A DNA stretch of 64,000 nucleotides from Chromatiales bacterium (GCA_020831895.1 JAFIFS010000067.1:1-64000), one strand, 5' to 3'; shown: positions 14,338 to 22,790, counted from the stretch's first letter. The notes: generated by a model from the letters alone, not told the origin. Numbers and translations are program-made.

Positions 14338-16245
14338 TCAGCCCAGCATGCCGCGCGCGCGCAGCAGCGCGATGATCTGGTCGGCGGCTTCCTCGAGGGC
14401 GATGCCGGTGTTGTCGATGCGCAGTTCCGGTGACTCAGGCGCCTCGTAGGGTGAGTCGATGCCGGTGAAGTTCTTCAGCTCGCCACGTCTTGCCTTCCGG
14501 TAGAGGCCCTTCGGGTCACGCTGCTCGGCAACCTCGAGCGGCACGTCGACGAAGATTTCGATGAACTCGCCCTCGCCGAGCAGCGAGCGCGCCATGCGCC
14601 GCTCGGAGCGGAACGGCGAGATGAACGCGGTCAGCACGATCAGGCCGGCATCGACCATGAGCCGGCTGACCTCGCCCACGCGGCGGATGTTCTCGACGCG
14701 GTCTTCCTCGGTGAAGCCGAGGTCGCGGTTCAGCCCGTGGCGCACGTTGTCGCCGTCGAGCAGGTAGGTGTGGCTGCCCATCGCGTGCAGCTTGCGCTCC
14801 ACCTCGTTGGCGATACTCGACTTTCCGGAGCCGGAAAGGCCGGTGAACCAGAGTACGCAGGGTTTCTGGTGTTTCTGCCGGGCGCGTGCACCCTTGTCGA
14901 TGTCGGTCGCCTGCAGGTGGATGTTGTGCGAGCGGCGCAGCGCGAAATTCAGCATGCCGGCACCGACCGTGCCGTTGCTGAGCCGGTCGATGAAGATGAA
15001 GCTGCCTGTGTCCCGGTTCTCCTCGTACGGGTCGAAGGCGATCTGGCGGTCAAGACTGATGTTGCAGACCGCAATGCCGTTGAGTTCGAGCTTGCTGGCC
15101 GCCAGCTGCTCCGTCGTGTTGACGTTGACCTGGTACTTGATATCGGTCACCGACGCGGTCACGGTGTTCGTGCCGATCTTCATCAGGTAGGTGCGGCCTG
15201 GATACAGTGGCTCCTCGGCCATCCAGATCATCCGGGCCTCGAACTGGTCGGCGACCTCGGCTGGTGCCTTTGCGCCTGAGATCAGTGAGCCACGTGAGAT
15301 ATCGATCTCATCGGCCAGCGTCAGCGTGACCGACTGCCCGGCGACCGCCTGCTCGAGGTCGCCCTCGTCGGTCACGATGCGTGCCACCGTGCTCTCGCGG
15401 CCGGAAGGCTGCACCCGGACCCGGTCGCCCGGCCTGACAATGCCGCTGGCGATCATGCCGCAGAAGCCCCGGAAGTCCAGGTTCGGCCGGTTGACCCACT
15501 GCACCGGCAGGCGGAACGGGGCGCGCTGCATCCTGGTGTCGTCGAGTTCCAGCGCCTCCAGGCAGCCGATCAGCGTGGGTCCGTCGTACCAGCCGGTTTC
15601 GGTGCCGCGCGAGATGATGTTGTCGCCGCGCAGTGCGGAGACCGGGATCGCCGTGAAGTCCTCGAGGCCTATCATCCGGGCAAATTCCCGATAGTCCTCG
15701 ATGATGGAACGGAACACCGCCTCCGAGTAGCCGACCAGGTCCATCTTGTTGATGGCCAGGATCACGTGGCGGATGCCGAGCAGCGAAACCAGGTAGCTGT
15801 GGCGGCGGGTCTGCGTCAGCACGCCCCTGCGTGCGTCGACCAGGATGATCGCGGCGTCGGCCGTCGAGGCCCCGGTCACCATGTTGCGCGTGTACTGCTC
15901 GTGTCCGGGTGTGTCAGCGACGATGAACTTGCGCCGGTCGGTGGAGAAGAACCGGTAGGCGACATCGATCGTGATGCCCTGCTCACGCTCGGCCGCCAGC
16001 CCGTCGACCAGCAGCGCGAGGTCGATCTCCTCGGCCTGCGTGCCCCAGCGCTTCGAGTCGCGCTCGATGGCGGCCAGCTGGTCCTCGAACAGCAGCTTGG
16101 AGTCGTAGAGCATGCGGCCGATCAGCGTGCTCTTGCCGTCATCGACGCTGCCGCAGGTGATGAAGCGCAGCAGGCTCTTCGTTTCGTGCAGGTGCAGGTA
16201 GCGCTCGATGTCGCTCGCGATCAGGTCGTCGGGCTGCGTTGCCAT
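14338..16245 (-). CDS. cysNC: Bifunctional sulfate adenylyltransferase subunit 1 / adenylylsulfate kinase
   Basis: A 635-residue fusion for sulfate activation. The N-terminal two-thirds is CysN, an EF-Tu-like GTPase with P-loop GSVDDGKST (about residues 32-40), DTPGHEQY and NKMDLV. It powers ATP sulfurylase together with CysD to give APS. The C-terminal part is CysC, with P-loop GLSGSGKSS near residue 465, which phosphorylates APS to PAPS. The start codon overlaps the cysD stop (ATGA), indicating translational coupling. The NodQ-like fusion is common in proteobacteria. No reductase genes (cysH, cysIJ) are nearby, so the use of PAPS cannot be told from here. Confidence 0.97.
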
Positions 16246-17156
16246 CAGAAGTACCCTTCCTGTTTCTTCTTTTCCATCGAGGCGGCGCTGTCATGGTCGA
16301 TGACCCGGCCCTGACGCTCTGAGGTCCGTGTCAGCAGCATCTCCTGGATGATTTCCGGCAGCGTGACGGCGTGCGACTCGACTGCGCCGGTCAGCGGGTA
16401 GCAACCCAGCGTCCGGAAGCGCACCATGCGCATCCGGGGTTGCTCGCCCTCGGCCAGCGGCATGCGCTCGTCATCGACCATGATCAGCGCACCATCGCGC
16501 TCGACAACCGGACGCTCGGCGGCGAAATAGAGCGGCACGATCGGGATGTTCCTGAGCCAGATGTACTGCCAGATATCGAGCTCGTTCCAGTTCGACAGCG
16601 GAAACACGCGTATGGACTCACCACGCTGCTTGCGCGCGTTGTAGAGCTTCCATAGTTCGGGCCGCTGGTTCTTCGGGTCCCAGCGGTGCTGTGCGGTCCG
16701 GAAGGAGAAAATGCGCTCCTTGGCGCGCGACTTCTCCTCGTCACGGCGGGCGCCACCGAAGGCGGCATCGAAGCCGTAGCGGTCGAGCGCCTGCTTCAGC
16801 GCCTCCGTCTTCATGGTGTCGGTATGTACGGCCGAACCATGCGTGAACGGGTTGATGCCGCGCTCGACCCCGTCCTGATTCACGTAAACGATCAGGTCGA
16901 GCCCATGCTCGGCGGCGATCCGGTCGCGGAACGCGTACATCTCTCGGAACTTCCAGCGCGTGTCGACATGCAGCAGCGGGAACGGCGGGCGCGAGGGATG
17001 GAAAGCCTTCATGGCCAGGTGCAGCATGACAGCGCTGTCCTTGCCGACCGAGTAGAGCATGACCGGCTTCTCGGTTTCGGCCACGACCTCGCGCATGATG
17101 TGGATGCTCTCGGCCTCGAGCTGCTCGAGATGGGTCAAGGTCCTTGCGTCGATCAT
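16245..17156 (-). CDS. cysD: Sulfate adenylyltransferase subunit 2
   Basis: A 303-residue ATP-sulfurylase catalytic subunit of the adenine-nucleotide alpha hydrolase (PP-loop) superfamily. The PP-loop motif [13 protein letters not shown] lies at about residues 36-48, and the conserved [20 protein letters not shown] and [15 protein letters not shown] segments follow. It forms the heterodimer with the CysN part of the downstream fusion, to which it is coupled by a 1-base overlap. The 183-base upstream spacer separates it from a divergent gene and probably holds both promoters. Confidence 0.97.
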
Positions 17157-17339: not shown

Positions 17340-18533
17340 ATGACGACGAAGCGCGGGAATGAGCCGAAGGCGCAGGAGGCCGGGCTGGACCGGCGTACGC
17401 TGATCACCGGCGCGGGGGCCGCGGTAGTGGCGGCCGGGATGGGCGCTGCCCAGGCCGGGTCCGGCGACCGGCAGCGGATCTCGGTTGCGCGCAGGGGGCG
17501 CTACGAGACCGTGGAGCTGCGCCAGCCGGGGATCAATGTCTCGGCGATACAGTCGCGGGTGAAATCGGTAGACCTGCGCAACCTGCGCCGGACCAATCGC
17601 GAGAACCTCGACCACGTGCTGCGCCTGATCGACATTGCCCAGGGCATGCCGGAGGAGTGGGGTGGCGGGCGGCTCTGGGGTGCCCGCCAGGACCTGCTCT
17701 GCATGCACGAGTTCCCCATCCAGGGCTGGCAGCCCTGGGGTCGGCGCGAGCTGCAGCGCATTGCCTACGAGCTGCCGGGGCCTGAATCCGAGGCCATAGG
17801 CGAGCGCGCCCGGCGCTATGGCTGCTACATTTCCTGGGGAGCCTACGTGCGCGACCCGGACTGGCCGGGCCACATCCTGAATCTCTCGGTGCTGACCGGC
17901 CCGGACGGCAGCATCATCTCGAAGCAGTGGAAGGCGCGCAACATTCTCGGGCTGTTCGGCGACAGCGCGCTGATTGGCACCACGGTCTACGACGTGCTGG
18001 ACCGCTTCGTCGAGATGTATGGCTGGGACGAGGTGCTGCCGGTCGCGCGCACCGACATCGGCAATATCGCGCTGACGGCCGTGGGCCTGGAGCCGATCCT
18101 GTACCAGGCGCTGGCCCTCAAGGGGGCCGAGATCCTGGTGATGACGGTAACCGGAGGCTCGAACGCGGACTCGGCGATCGCGACTGCCCGGGCGAACCGG
18201 TTCTATACCCTGGGTGTCGGCAACTCAGTCACCTTCGACAACCTGGGCTTTGCCGAAGCCGCCGGCATCCGCGGCGACGGCTCGGTCATCGTCGACCCGA
18301 CCGGTACCGTGCTTGCACAGACGGCCAACCACCACGAGGACATCATCACCGCCCGCGTGCCGATTGCGGACTTCAGGCAGAGCCGTCGTTTTCCCGAGGT
18401 GCCGATGGCGCTGCTGCTGCCGCTGTTCCAGCAGTATGAGCCCGCGTTCAAGCCCAACGCCTTCATGGAGGAGCTCCCCGAGACTTATCGTGATGCGGGC
18501 CGGCTGCTGCGCCAGCGCATGGAGGGCGGCTGA
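17340..18533 (+). CDS. TAT-exported nitrilase-superfamily protein lacking the catalytic cysteine
   Basis: A 397-residue protein with a twin-arginine-like signal (LDRRTLITGAG plus an Ala/Gly-rich stretch, residues 15-42). The body (about 65-370) matches the carbon-nitrogen hydrolase fold, closest in layout to aliphatic amidases and formamidases. The catalytic Glu (HEFPIQGW, Glu124) and Lys (SKQWKARNI, Lys198) are visible. The position of the nucleophilic Cys (ICxDxxxPE-type) reads LTAVGLEP, giving Thr246 in place of Cys by my alignment. It is therefore either an inactive relative or an enzyme with altered chemistry. GGGGAGAG precedes the ATG. It lies 151 bases upstream of an amidohydrolase-like operon on the same strand. 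Confidence 0.8.
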   Translation: MTTKRGNEPKAQEAGLDRRTLITGAGAAVVAAGMGAAQAGSGDRQRISVARRGRYETVELRQPGINVSAIQSRVKSVDLRNLRRTNRENLDHVLRLIDIAQGMPEEWGGGRLWGARQDLLCMHEFPIQGWQPWGRRELQRIAYELPGPESEAIGERARRYGCYISWGAYVRDPDWPGHILNLSVLTGPDGSIISKQWKARNILGLFGDSALIGTTVYDVLDRFVEMYGWDEVLPVARTDIGNIALTAVGLEPILYQALALKGAEILVMTVTGGSNADSAIATARANRFYTLGVGNSVTFDNLGFAEAAGIRGDGSVIVDPTGTVLAQTANHHEDIITARVPIADFRQSRRFPEVPMALLLPLFQQYEPAFKPNAFMEELPETYRDAGRLLRQRMEGG

Positions 18534-18684
18534 GCCGGCTTGCTGGTTGCGGCCGGTCTGGCATAAGCTCATCAGCAAGACGGCTATCGTCCTGCATCAT
18601 CAGGCTGCATGCCATGTACGGGGGATCTTCCCAGTGAGCAAAAATCAGGCGGTAAAGCCGCATTTCAACGCAGTATTATTGCGC

Positions 18685-20058
18685 ATGGATCGTCGAATCC
18701 CGGCCCTGGTGGCGACGGCCCTGCTGCTGGCCGGTCTCCCGCAGGCACAGGCCGAGCGGCCGCGCATCCACGCGCTGACCGATGTGCGCATCGTTCCGGC
18801 GCCCGGCCAGCTTATCGAGTCAGGCACGATCGTTCTGCGCGACGGCTTCATCGAGGCCATCGGCCGGGGAGTTCAGCCGCCCCCTGACGCCGAGATCATC
18901 AAGGGCGAGGCCGGCTGGACGGTCTACCCGTCCTTCATCGATGCCGCCGCCCGCCTGGGTCTCGAGGAGCCCCAGGGCCGTGGGGCCCCGGCGCCGCGCG
19001 GACGCGAGGCCGCGGCGCCTCGAGGCGCGCCCCATGAGCTTCCGCCCGTGCGGCCGCAGCACCAGGTGCTCGACGAGGTGGATTTCAGCCAGGCCAGCAT
19101 GGCCCGCCATCGCCGGCTGGGTTTTGCAATGGCCCATGTGCTGCCGCAGACCGGCGTGTTCCGCGGCGAGTCCGCGATCCTCGTGCTGCGCGATGGTCCA
19201 GCCGTCGAACGGGTGGCCGCCGCCAGCCAGATGCAGGTCGTTGCGCTCGAGCGCCAGAGCTTCATGGCCCGGCAGTACCCGTCCTCGCGCATGGGCGCGA
19301 TGGCGGTGGTGCGCCAGGCGCTGCTGGATGCTGATCGCCAGGCCCGCTGGAGCCAGCGCCACGCGGCCCGGCCTGCCGGCCTGGCGCCGCCGCCGTTCCG
19401 GGCCTCGGATGCGCCTCTGCAGGCCGTGCTCAGCGGCCAGCGTCCGGTGCTGTTCGTCAGCACCGCTGGTCTCGATCCCAGGCGTTTTGCCGGGATCACC
19501 AGCCAGTTCGGCCTCTCGGCCATGCTGCTGGCACAGGACCTGGGGGACCGTACCCAGGACCTGGTCGCTGGCGGCATGCCCGTGCTGATGCCGCTGAAAA
19601 TGCCGGCGGCGCCGGCGCTCGACAGTGACGACGCGTTCGCCGAGGCGACGCTGGCCGGGATGCAGGCCCGCCTGCAGGCGCCCACGCTGCTCGCGCGTCT
19701 GGACGGTGCGGGCGTTCGCGTCGCGCTGGTCACGCAGGGCATGGAGGATCCGGGCAAGCTGTACGAACAGCTGGGCCAGCTGGTCGACGGGGGTCTGGAC
19801 CCGGACCTCGCGCTGGCTGCGCTGACCACGGTGCCGGCGGAGCTTCTGGGGCTCGCTGCCGTGACCGGCACGCTGGCGCCAGGGAAGCAGGCCAACCTGT
19901 TCATAGTCGAGGGAGAGCTGTTCGGCGGCGAGCCGAAACTCCGCCACCTGTTCGTTCAGGGGTACCACGAGGTCGTGCGGCCCGAGGAGTCGGGGGCGCG
20001 CGGACGGGGTGGCCGGCCCGGCGCACGGTCCATGCTGACCACCGGGGAGGTGTACTGA
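18685..20058 (+). CDS. Secreted amidohydrolase-like protein without metal-binding residues
   Basis: A 457-residue protein with a signal peptide (MDRRIPALVATALLLAG, cleaved near AQA). The N-terminal beta sandwich (LTDVRIVPAPGQLIESG) and C-terminal TLAPGKQANLFIVEG are the usual frame of imidazolonepropionase-like amidohydrolases. Where active members have PGxIDxHxH this one has YPSFIDAAARLG, and the later His and Asp ligands are also absent. A low-complexity Pro/Arg/Ala linker lies near residues 95-120. ATG at 18685 is chosen for the signal peptide; a GTG at 18634 is possible and no strong ribosome site is seen. Its TGA overlaps the next ATG. Confidence 0.75.
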   Translation: MDRRIPALVATALLLAGLPQAQAERPRIHALTDVRIVPAPGQLIESGTIVLRDGFIEAIGRGVQPPPDAEIIKGEAGWTVYPSFIDAAARLGLEEPQGRGAPAPRGREAAAPRGAPHELPPVRPQHQVLDEVDFSQASMARHRRLGFAMAHVLPQTGVFRGESAILVLRDGPAVERVAAASQMQVVALERQSFMARQYPSSRMGAMAVVRQALLDADRQARWSQRHAARPAGLAPPPFRASDAPLQAVLSGQRPVLFVSTAGLDPRRFAGITSQFGLSAMLLAQDLGDRTQDLVAGGMPVLMPLKMPAAPALDSDDAFAEATLAGMQARLQAPTLLARLDGAGVRVALVTQGMEDPGKLYEQLGQLVDGGLDPDLALAALTTVPAELLGLAAVTGTLAPGKQANLFIVEGELFGGEPKLRHLFVQGYHEVVRPEESGARGRGGRPGARSMLTTGEVY

Positions 20059-22790
20059 TGAAGCTGCGCGCACTGCTGGCTGTTGCCGCGCTGGGCGGCG
20101 CCTTCGCCTCGCCGCTTCCGGCCGAGATCACGCTGGAGGAGGCGCTGGCGATGCCGGTGCACCCCACGCCGCCGCCCGCGCCCGAGCGCGTGCTGATCCG
20201 TAATGCCACCGTCTGGACGATGACCGGGGACGGCATCCTCGAGGATACGGATGTATTGCTGGAACGGGGCCGCATCGCGGCCGTGGGCCAGGGCCTTAGC
20301 GCCCGCGCCGCCGCGCTGGAGATCGATGGCCGTGGTCGGCACGTGACTCCCGGACTGATTGACGCACACAGCCACACGGCCGTCGAGAGCCTGGAGCTGA
20401 ACGAGGGCGTCAACATCGTCAGTTCGGAGGTCCGGGCCGAGGACCTGCTCGACCCGCGCTCGGCCGACATCTACCGCCAGCTCGCCGGCGGCGTCACGCT
20501 GGTGCAGGTGCTGCACGGCTCTGCAAACGCCATCGGGGGCCAGAGCGCAATCGTCAAGTACCGCTGGGGCGTCGAGGAGCCGGAGGCTCTCGTCTACCGG
20601 GAGGCCCCGCCGACCATCAAGTTCGCGCTGGGGGAAAACCCAACCCAGGTTGGCCTCGTGATGCCGGGCGCACAGCGACGCTATCCGGCGACGCGAATGG
20701 GCGTTGCCGCGCAGATTCGCAACAGCTTCGAGCAGGCGGCCAACTACCGCGACGAGTGGGCGCGATACAACGCGCTGTCGCGGCGTGAGCGGGAAAGAGC
20801 GGTGCCTCCACGCCTCGACCTCCAGCTCGAGCCGCTGGTCGAGGTGCTCGAGGGGCGCCGCGAGATCCATGCCCACAGCTACCGGGCCGACGAGATCCTG
20901 ATGCTGATCCGGCTGGCCGAGGAGCTCGGCATCCGCGTAAACACCTTCCACCATGTACTCGAGGGTTACAAGGTTGCCGACGAGATGGCCGCGCACGGTG
21001 CAGCAGGCTCGACCTTCTCCGACTGGTGGAGCTTCAAGATGGAGGCGTTCGAGGCGATACCGCACAACGCGGCCATGATGCTTGAGCGTGGGGTGCTGAC
21101 GAGCCTGAACTCCGACGAGGCCAACCTGGCGCGGCGCATGCACCAGGAGGCCGCCAAGACGTTGCGCTGGGGCGGGCTCTCGCCCGAGCAGGCGATGTCG
21201 CTGGTCACCAGCGGGCCTGCAAAGCAGCTGATGATCGATGATCGCGTCGGGCGTATCGCTCCCGGCATGGATGCCGATGTCGTGATCTGGAGCGGCGATC
21301 CGCTCAGTGTCTACAGCATCGTCGAGCACACGTTCGTCGAGGGTCGCCAGGTCTACAGCCGCGAAGCTGACATTGCCCACCAGGCCCGGGTAGCTGAAGC
21401 GCGCGAGCGGCTTGCCGCCGAGCTGCGCGCGGCCGCCGAGGACCGGAATGCACGTGAGGGAGCCAACGCGGGCGGCCCGGATTCGCCGGCCGTGAATCCG
21501 CCCCCCGGCGCGGTGGAGTATCGTTTTGGTCCGTATCCCCGCGACCTGCCGGTCGCGATCGTAGGCGCAACGGTCAATACGCTCGAGGGCCCCGCCATCG
21601 AGAACGGCGTCGTGGTCATCGAGAACGGGCGTATCAGCGCGGTCGGTGGTCCGGGGACCCCGATTCCGGCGGGCGCGGAGCGGGTAGACGCCGGGGGGCT
21701 GCAGCTCTGGCCGGGCATCATCCACCTCAACACGGTGCTGGGTATCCACGAGATCGACAGTGTCGCCGCGACGATAGACTCGGCCGAGACCGGTGAGATC
21801 AATCCGGACGCCGATACCGCGATTGCCGTCAATGCAAGCAGCACGCACTTCGGTGTCGCGAGGTCGGCTGGCATCACGCATGCGCTCGTGGTGCCGGGCG
21901 GCGGTGCGATCGCAGGGTCGACGACCTTCCTGCGGACCCAGGGCTGGACCTGGGAAGAGATGATCGGCCTGCGCCGGCAGTCCATGGTGATGCAGTGGCC
22001 GGCGGTGGTGCCGCCGCGCTTCGCCGCTTTCTCCGGGGGACCCAAGTCGCTGGCCGAGCGGAAGAAGGACGCCGCGGAGCGAAGCGAGACGATAGGCCGG
22101 CTGCTCGATGACGCGGCAGCCTGGCAGCGCGCCCGTGTCCACGGCGCCGATCCGAGCCGCGTCGCCTTCGATCCGCACCTGGCCGCACTTGTCCCCGTGC
22201 TGGATGGCGAGCAGCCCGTCTGGGCCTTCGCGCGCGAGGGCTACTCAATGCTGGCGGCGATGGATTTCGCCGCCAGCCGCGGGCTGCGCGTCGTGCTGAC
22301 CGATGCGCTGCAGGCCTACCGCATGGCCGACGAGCTGGCGGAGCGGCAGGTGCCGGTGGTGCTCACCAACATCGTCGGGACGCCCGGAGGCGATGATGAG
22401 CCGCACGACACGCTCTATCGACTGCCGGCACAGCTCGAGGAGGCGGGGGCACTCTTTGCCCTGGCCAGCGGCACCCGCGTGGGCGGTTCCGCGAACGCGC
22501 GCTACGTGACGCTGTTTGCGGGTCTCGCCGCCGCGCATGGGCTCGATCGGCAGGCGGCCTACCGCTCGATCACGCTGTATCCGGCGCGTATCCTCGGCGT
22601 CGATGACGTGCTGGGCTCGATCGCGCCCGGCAAGAGCGCGAGCCTCGTGCTGACCGACGGGGACCTGCTGGAGCAGTCGACGGAGGTGCTGCGCGTCTGG
22701 ATCGACGGGATGCCGGCAGATCTCGACGATGTGCAGAAGACGGCCTACGAGCACTGGCGGGCGCGGCCGGAGCCAGGGGCGGCACGCTAG
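20058..22790 (+). CDS. Secreted tandem amidohydrolase: one intact and one degenerate barrel
   Basis: A 910-residue exported protein with two amidohydrolase units in series. Unit 1 (about residues 45-440) keeps the metal site: His104-Ser-His106 (PGLIDAHSHT), EIHAHSYRADE, VNTFHHVLEG and the late Asp in LTSLNSDEANL. It closes with GRIAPGMDADVVIWSGD. Unit 2 (about 480-900) keeps the fold frame, starting DLPVAIVGATVNTLEG and closing SIAPGKSASLVLTDGD. It reads GIIHLNTVLGI at the first motif and lacks the other ligands. The closest functional analogues are imidazolonepropionase- or prolidase-like amidohydrolases, with substrate unknown. Translation is coupled to the preceding degenerate paralogue by a 1-base overlap. 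Confidence 0.85.
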   Translation: MKLRALLAVAALGGAFASPLPAEITLEEALAMPVHPTPPPAPERVLIRNATVWTMTGDGILEDTDVLLERGRIAAVGQGLSARAAALEIDGRGRHVTPGLIDAHSHTAVESLELNEGVNIVSSEVRAEDLLDPRSADIYRQLAGGVTLVQVLHGSANAIGGQSAIVKYRWGVEEPEALVYREAPPTIKFALGENPTQVGLVMPGAQRRYPATRMGVAAQIRNSFEQAANYRDEWARYNALSRRERERAVPPRLDLQLEPLVEVLEGRREIHAHSYRADEILMLIRLAEELGIRVNTFHHVLEGYKVADEMAAHGAAGSTFSDWWSFKMEAFEAIPHNAAMMLERGVLTSLNSDEANLARRMHQEAAKTLRWGGLSPEQAMSLVTSGPAKQLMIDDRVGRIAPGMDADVVIWSGDPLSVYSIVEHTFVEGRQVYSREADIAHQARVAEARERLAAELRAAAEDRNAREGANAGGPDSPAVNPPPGAVEYRFGPYPRDLPVAIVGATVNTLEGPAIENGVVVIENGRISAVGGPGTPIPAGAERVDAGGLQLWPGIIHLNTVLGIHEIDSVAATIDSAETGEINPDADTAIAVNASSTHFGVARSAGITHALVVPGGGAIAGSTTFLRTQGWTWEEMIGLRRQSMVMQWPAVVPPRFAAFSGGPKSLAERKKDAAERSETIGRLLDDAAAWQRARVHGADPSRVAFDPHLAALVPVLDGEQPVWAFAREGYSMLAAMDFAASRGLRVVLTDALQAYRMADELAERQVPVVLTNIVGTPGGDDEPHDTLYRLPAQLEEAGALFALASGTRVGGSANARYVTLFAGLAAAHGLDRQAAYRSITLYPARILGVDDVLGSIAPGKSASLVLTDGDLLEQSTEVLRVWIDGMPADLDDVQKTAYEHWRARPEPGAAR

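Follow-up and report, generated by a model that had tools for sequence, protein, structure and literature searches.

A probable exported complex of three paralogous amidohydrolase-fold units with a single metal site, encoded in the genome of a Chromatiales bacterium

Two adjacent genes of a Chromatiales bacterium (GCA_020831895.1), here named AH1 and AH2, encode three paralogous amidohydrolase-fold units, and only one of these, the N-terminal unit of AH2 (AH2N), retains the core residues of a metal site. From sequence comparisons and by analogy with known systems, we consider it probable, at about two chances in three, that AH1 and AH2 form an obligate exported hetero-complex in which AH2N holds the only metal site and the other two units, AH1 and AH2C, are dead partners. 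The genes lie in a window of 64,000 nucleotides (JAFIFS010000067.1:1-64000), which is the whole stretch of DNA that was analysed, and their features are the following:

17340-18533, plus strand: gene 1, the nitrilase-fold neighbour, outside the trio of units; 397 aa, Tat-like N-terminus, PF00795
18685-20058, plus strand: AH1, exported-type amidohydrolase-fold unit, dead (0/6 core residues); 457 aa
20058-22790, plus strand: AH2, exported-type two-unit amidohydrolase; 910 aa, its ATG overlapping the AH1 stop
20124-21500 (approximate bounds), plus strand: AH2N, live unit of AH2; 6/6 core residues
20367-20375, plus strand: codons of the HxH motif of AH2N, His104-Ser105-His106
21501-22787 (approximate bounds), plus strand: AH2C, dead amidohydrolase-fold unit of AH2; core residues absent

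The three open reading frames are intact and lie on the same strand, as an earlier note on this DNA had stated, and the export-type N-termini that it had read in all three genes are also found: AH1 and AH2 begin with Sec-like signal sequences (by inspection), and gene 1 with a Tat-like RR motif, which scores 13.9 bits against TIGR01409, under the cut-off of 16.7. AH1 starts at position 18685 and ends in the TGA at 20056-20058, which overlaps the start of AH2 by one base in the junction TGATG; because of this overlap and of a GGGGAGG sequence upstream of the AH2 start, translational coupling of the two genes is likely. A scan for promoters and terminators gave nothing informative. The minus strand upstream of gene 1 (14338-17156) carries cysD and a fused cysN/cysC, for sulfate activation, and in relatives these genes showed no link to the trio.

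AH1 matches PF01979 in Pfam (E 5e-9), and AH2 matches PF01979/PF07969 above the cut-off in more than one stretch (E 1e-24 and 6e-27). Among solved structures, the Thermotoga maritima amidohydrolase 3ooq is the closest to all three units, with E-values of 2e-56 for AH2N and 3e-21 and 5e-10 for the other two. When aligned to 3ooq, AH2N presents the same core residues (His104, His106, Lys188, His273, His299 and Asp353), and AH1 and AH2C of the window present none of the six metal/carbamate residues. By its profile, its solved-structure match and its metal-site residues, AH2N belongs to the amidohydrolase superfamily, and the residues HxH, Lys (probably carbamylated), His, His and Asp make it a probable binuclear metallohydrolase; the carbamylated lysine is probably Lys188, by resemblance to other amidohydrolases and by its position in a predicted strand. 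AH1 and AH2C, judged by the same alignment, lack the metal site that marks the enzymes of this superfamily. The pattern extends beyond the window: all 107 live AH2N units collected have the six core residues, and each of the 192 dead units (91 AH1 and 101 AH2C) has between zero and two. Three of the four units had been described as having lost their key residues, which stands, gene 1 having no catalytic Cys; the common hydrolase fold attributed to all three genes applies to AH1 and AH2, amidohydrolase-superfamily TIM barrels, and not to gene 1, which belongs to the nitrilase superfamily.

AlphaFold models were obtained for AH2 of the window (888 residues, 36 sequences; pLDDT 87, pTM 0.89) and for the natural AH1-AH2N fusion of Idiomarina baltica (pLDDT 87, pTM 0.83). 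These pTM values refer to pairs of units within one chain and suggest that the relative placement of the two units is predicted confidently in each case. The best Foldseek match of both models was again 3ooq (TMt 0.90 and 0.88), followed by dipeptidases and carboxypeptidases of the COG1228 type. The Idiomarina model also presents a beta-rich region of about 100 residues between the AH1 and AH2N barrels (L105:4608-4952), which had no significant match in Pfam. About 100 residues follow AH1 in many relatives, either between AH1 and AH2N (L086) or as C-terminal tails of AH1 (L083-L091), and are absent from AH1 of the window.

Of the 147 genomes of the order, 16 have AH1, and it is precisely these 16 that have AH2, which in one of them (G139) is cut at a contig end. 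In the family of the window, AH1 is a separate gene and AH2N and AH2C are fused, except in one genome (G115), where a single open reading frame of 1470 residues includes all three units; a linker rich in Ala and Pro is present there, and AH2N has no signal sequence ahead of it. Families f2 and f9 of the order present the other arrangement, with AH1 and AH2N fused and AH2C separate. The live unit was used to scan named bacterial and archaeal genomes, which gave at least 484 relatives. The best 80 loci were analysed; they lie nearest to the live unit in sequence, and looser relatives are under-sampled. They belong to Acidobacteria, Bacteroidota, Planctomycetota, Ignavibacteria, Marinimicrobia, Zixibacteria and Gammaproteobacteria, the last including Idiomarina and Pseudohongiella.

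The fused AH1-AH2N followed by a separate AH2C is found in 51 of these 80 loci, plus one in which AH1 is split in two hits. Three separate genes occur in 10 loci, AH1 followed by fused AH2N-AH2C in four, the fused AH2N-AH2C followed by AH1 in three, and all three units in one chain in one. Only AH1-AH2N was seen at six loci and only AH2N and AH2C, as separate genes, at four; contig ends lie at or near the latter four and two of the former. The remaining four AH1-AH2N loci extend far enough downstream to show that AH2C does not adjoin them, and each of these four genomes has a strong AH2C on another contig. In the examples inspected, an export-type signal is carried by or precedes every unit. 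No conserved neighbour hinting at the substrate was found around the 80 loci. When the same parts are fused in alternative ways, functional association is usually indicated, though contact is not proven; together with the co-occurrence, the fusions show that the three units are functionally associated, and for physical association they are indirect support. The assembly with one working site that the earlier note had proposed is supported for AH1 and AH2, by co-occurrence and alternative fusions, and not for gene 1.

In a tree of 295 units, AH1 (87/87, support 1.0), AH2N (107/107, support 0.993) and AH2C of the trio type (87/87, support 0.993) each formed one clade. The nearest relatives of the AH1, AH2N and AH2C units of the window's family are all from Acidobacteria (L097/L098), with parent supports of 0.34, 0.61 and 0.97, and such common nearest relatives are consistent with joint inheritance or joint transfer of the three units. 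Other families of the order (L050-L064) present a two-gene pair of a live and a dead amidohydrolase unit, with no AH1. The dead partner of these pairs falls outside the AH2C clade of the trio, which suggests that the pair is a second lineage or an older stage.

The loss of the core residues is ancient, as judged from its presence in several phyla, and the dead units are nevertheless constrained. Since the window genome is the only one of its genus in the comparison set, dN/dS (NG86) was taken from genomes of related genera, where it was 0.13-0.19 for AH1, 0.07-0.13 for AH2N, 0.05-0.10 for AH2C and 0.025-0.048 for gene 1; synonymous sites are partly saturated, and the values indicate strong constraint and not exact ratios. 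The purifying selection supposed for the inactive folds is therefore borne out for AH1 and AH2C (0.05-0.19), and every unit is well below the value near 1 that had been named as evidence against it. In AH1 and AH2C, most of the columns that held the former ligands rank on the more variable side (percentiles 0.58-0.96); the exception is the beta-6 position, which is usually Gly in the dead units. AH1 retains a conserved P-x-S..G..A..RQ...D segment. These alignments therefore favour structure or interfaces, over a pocket re-used at the metal site, as the object of the constraint. The shared sensing function suggested earlier finds no support in this distribution, although a ligand or sensing site might lie elsewhere in these units. 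If the dead units were ligand sensors, with a remodelled pocket that binds a signal such as substrate or product and so switches or feeds AH2N, the strong constraint on both and the conserved segments that each retains would be expected; however, in neither of them is the old site conserved as a pocket throughout the family, and we regard this role as unlikely.

The dead copies could also be the entrenched remains of a hetero-oligomer, in which an interface dependence that arose after duplication would make them impossible to lose and they would add nothing to the enzyme. The ancient loss, the constraint and the obligate co-occurrence fit this explanation equally well, and the replacement of homomers by heteromers after duplication has been modelled as a route (PMC11066126). 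On the other hand, two distinct dead copies across phyla and repeated re-fusion exceed a single event, an argument that is not decisive, and simple entrenchment seems to us improbable as well.

We therefore return to the obligate hetero-complex. The trio presents an inactive homologue under selection and tied to an active partner, as expected of a pseudoenzyme and its enzyme; the tie is drawn from the identical distribution in the order, from the four genomes that keep an unlinked AH2C and from dN/dS in relatives. In the proposed mechanism, AH2N would act outside the cytoplasm, and family resemblance suggests as its substrate a small compound similar to an amide or a dipeptide. AH1 and AH2C would go back to an ancestral oligomer whose subunits were duplicated; as obligate partners they would now complete the complex and stabilise or regulate AH2N, much as the ATCase of Pseudomonas needs its pseudo-dihydroorotase (pDHO). 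Physical contact, metal content, origin from an oligomer, the role of the dead units and the substrate are what we infer in this reading. The pDHO is an amidohydrolase-superfamily homologue without zinc ligands that is needed for ATCase activity (PMC7053772), thus an obligate role for a dead partner has a precedent. The likeness to the trio lies in a chain of this superfamily without zinc ligands that an enzyme requires; unlike the trio, its partner is a transcarbamoylase and not a paralogue, it is cytoplasmic, and it is a single dead unit where the trio has two different ones.

As a more tentative extension, the two dead barrels might form, in trans, a portion of the entrance to the active site, so that three barrels would share one composite site; this site would select or channel the substrate, and AH2N would be inactive alone. 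A trio of this kind, which we hold possible without favouring it, would be an undescribed class of exported heteromeric metallohydrolase.

Among the genomes compared, gene 1 lies beside AH1 and AH2 only in that of the window. It matches PF00795 (48.8 bits, cut-off 23.2, E 8e-13) and so has the nitrilase fold, which it shares with the formamidase AmiF and the nitrilase superfamily together with the catalytic Glu and Lys (Glu124 and Lys198). It differs from AmiF by its Tat-type N-terminus and by Thr246, which the profile alignment places at the position of the catalytic Cys of the Helicobacter pylori formamidase, so that the complete Glu-Lys-Cys triad is absent. A two-residue gap near this loop was placed differently by two alignment methods, and Thr246 is not certain as the replacing residue; there is no Cys at either candidate position. 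Among 41 family sequences above 150 bits, in which the window is counted twice (itself and a copy of the locus), 40 keep Glu and Lys and have Ser (28) or Thr (12) in the place of Cys, and one outlier has His there and neither Glu nor Lys. This branch could be one with a hydroxyl nucleophile or a family of pseudoenzymes, as far as the alignments tell; nothing direct was found in the literature searched on a secreted nitrilase branch without Cys. The window genome has at least seven nitrilase-fold paralogues, several of them without the catalytic Cys (the others include L175, L176, L210 and L212).

Nine of the 147 genomes of the order, that of the window among them, have an orthologue of gene 1 (identity of at least 66%). 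Four of the nine also carry the trio, and in the three other than the window genome the two loci are on different contigs. The surroundings of the orthologues include no AH gene, and no neighbour is common to families. In comparison with family f2, gene 1 is about 80% identical and the AH units only about 33-54%, therefore gene 1 and the AH genes have different histories; this difference, and the nearest relatives of the AH units in Acidobacteria, make it probable that one or both were acquired by horizontal transfer. That gene 1, AH1 and AH2 constitute one exported assembly is very improbable: they are adjacent, on the same strand and all of the export type in the window genome, but the three are together in no relative, the surroundings of the gene 1 orthologues are unrelated, 12 of the 16 trio genomes have no orthologue at that identity, and 151 bases separate gene 1 from AH1. 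The expectation that the three genes would stay together was thus contradicted, gene 1 being beside AH1/AH2 in no relative among the 147 genomes, and gene 1 was rejected as a trio member; by these comparisons it is a separate Cys-less family that adjoins the trio by chance in the window genome.

Decaying pseudogenes or an assembly error, which a draft genome of 110 contigs and the only one of its genus in the comparison set might invite, are hardly credible and decay was rejected, since the frames are intact, the same losses are conserved in the 192 dead units from several phyla, cultured strains included, and dN/dS is well below 1 in relatives.

The systems closest to the trio differ from it in composition. 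3ooq is a single unit outside the AH2N clade, with no dead paralogues in its chain; it is a structural genomics entry whose title assigns no function, and nothing direct on it was found in the literature searched. The COG1228 structures (3mtw, 3mkv, 3feq, 3n2c and 2qs8), the next-best structural matches, resemble AH2N in fold and type of metal site, but they are single-unit proteins with 14-19% identity, and their substrate is not transferable to AH2N. Relatives in COG1228 act on dipeptides. The metalloBSH is a secreted bile salt hydrolase of the amidohydrolase superfamily that acts on taurine-conjugated bile salts (PMC13081902); it is like AH2N in being secreted-type and metal-dependent, a comparison by description, and unlike the trio in that the text of that paper mentions no subunits or inactive partners. 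By analogy with the COG1228 relatives and with this hydrolase, extracellular amides are plausible substrates of the trio.

No published description of the trio was found in the literature searched, which leaves out most subscription journals, and no trio-specific family model is present in Pfam or NCBIfam. The family models that match the trio are generic, and a live unit that is expressed singly on their basis may be without the partners that it needs. Dead enzyme subunits are known as obligate partners; two different dead paralogues kept with one live paralogue in several phyla, and the same three parts fused in several ways, represent a clean natural experiment on the persistence of pseudoenzymes. 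The alternative fusions are ready-made constructs for finding which interface matters.
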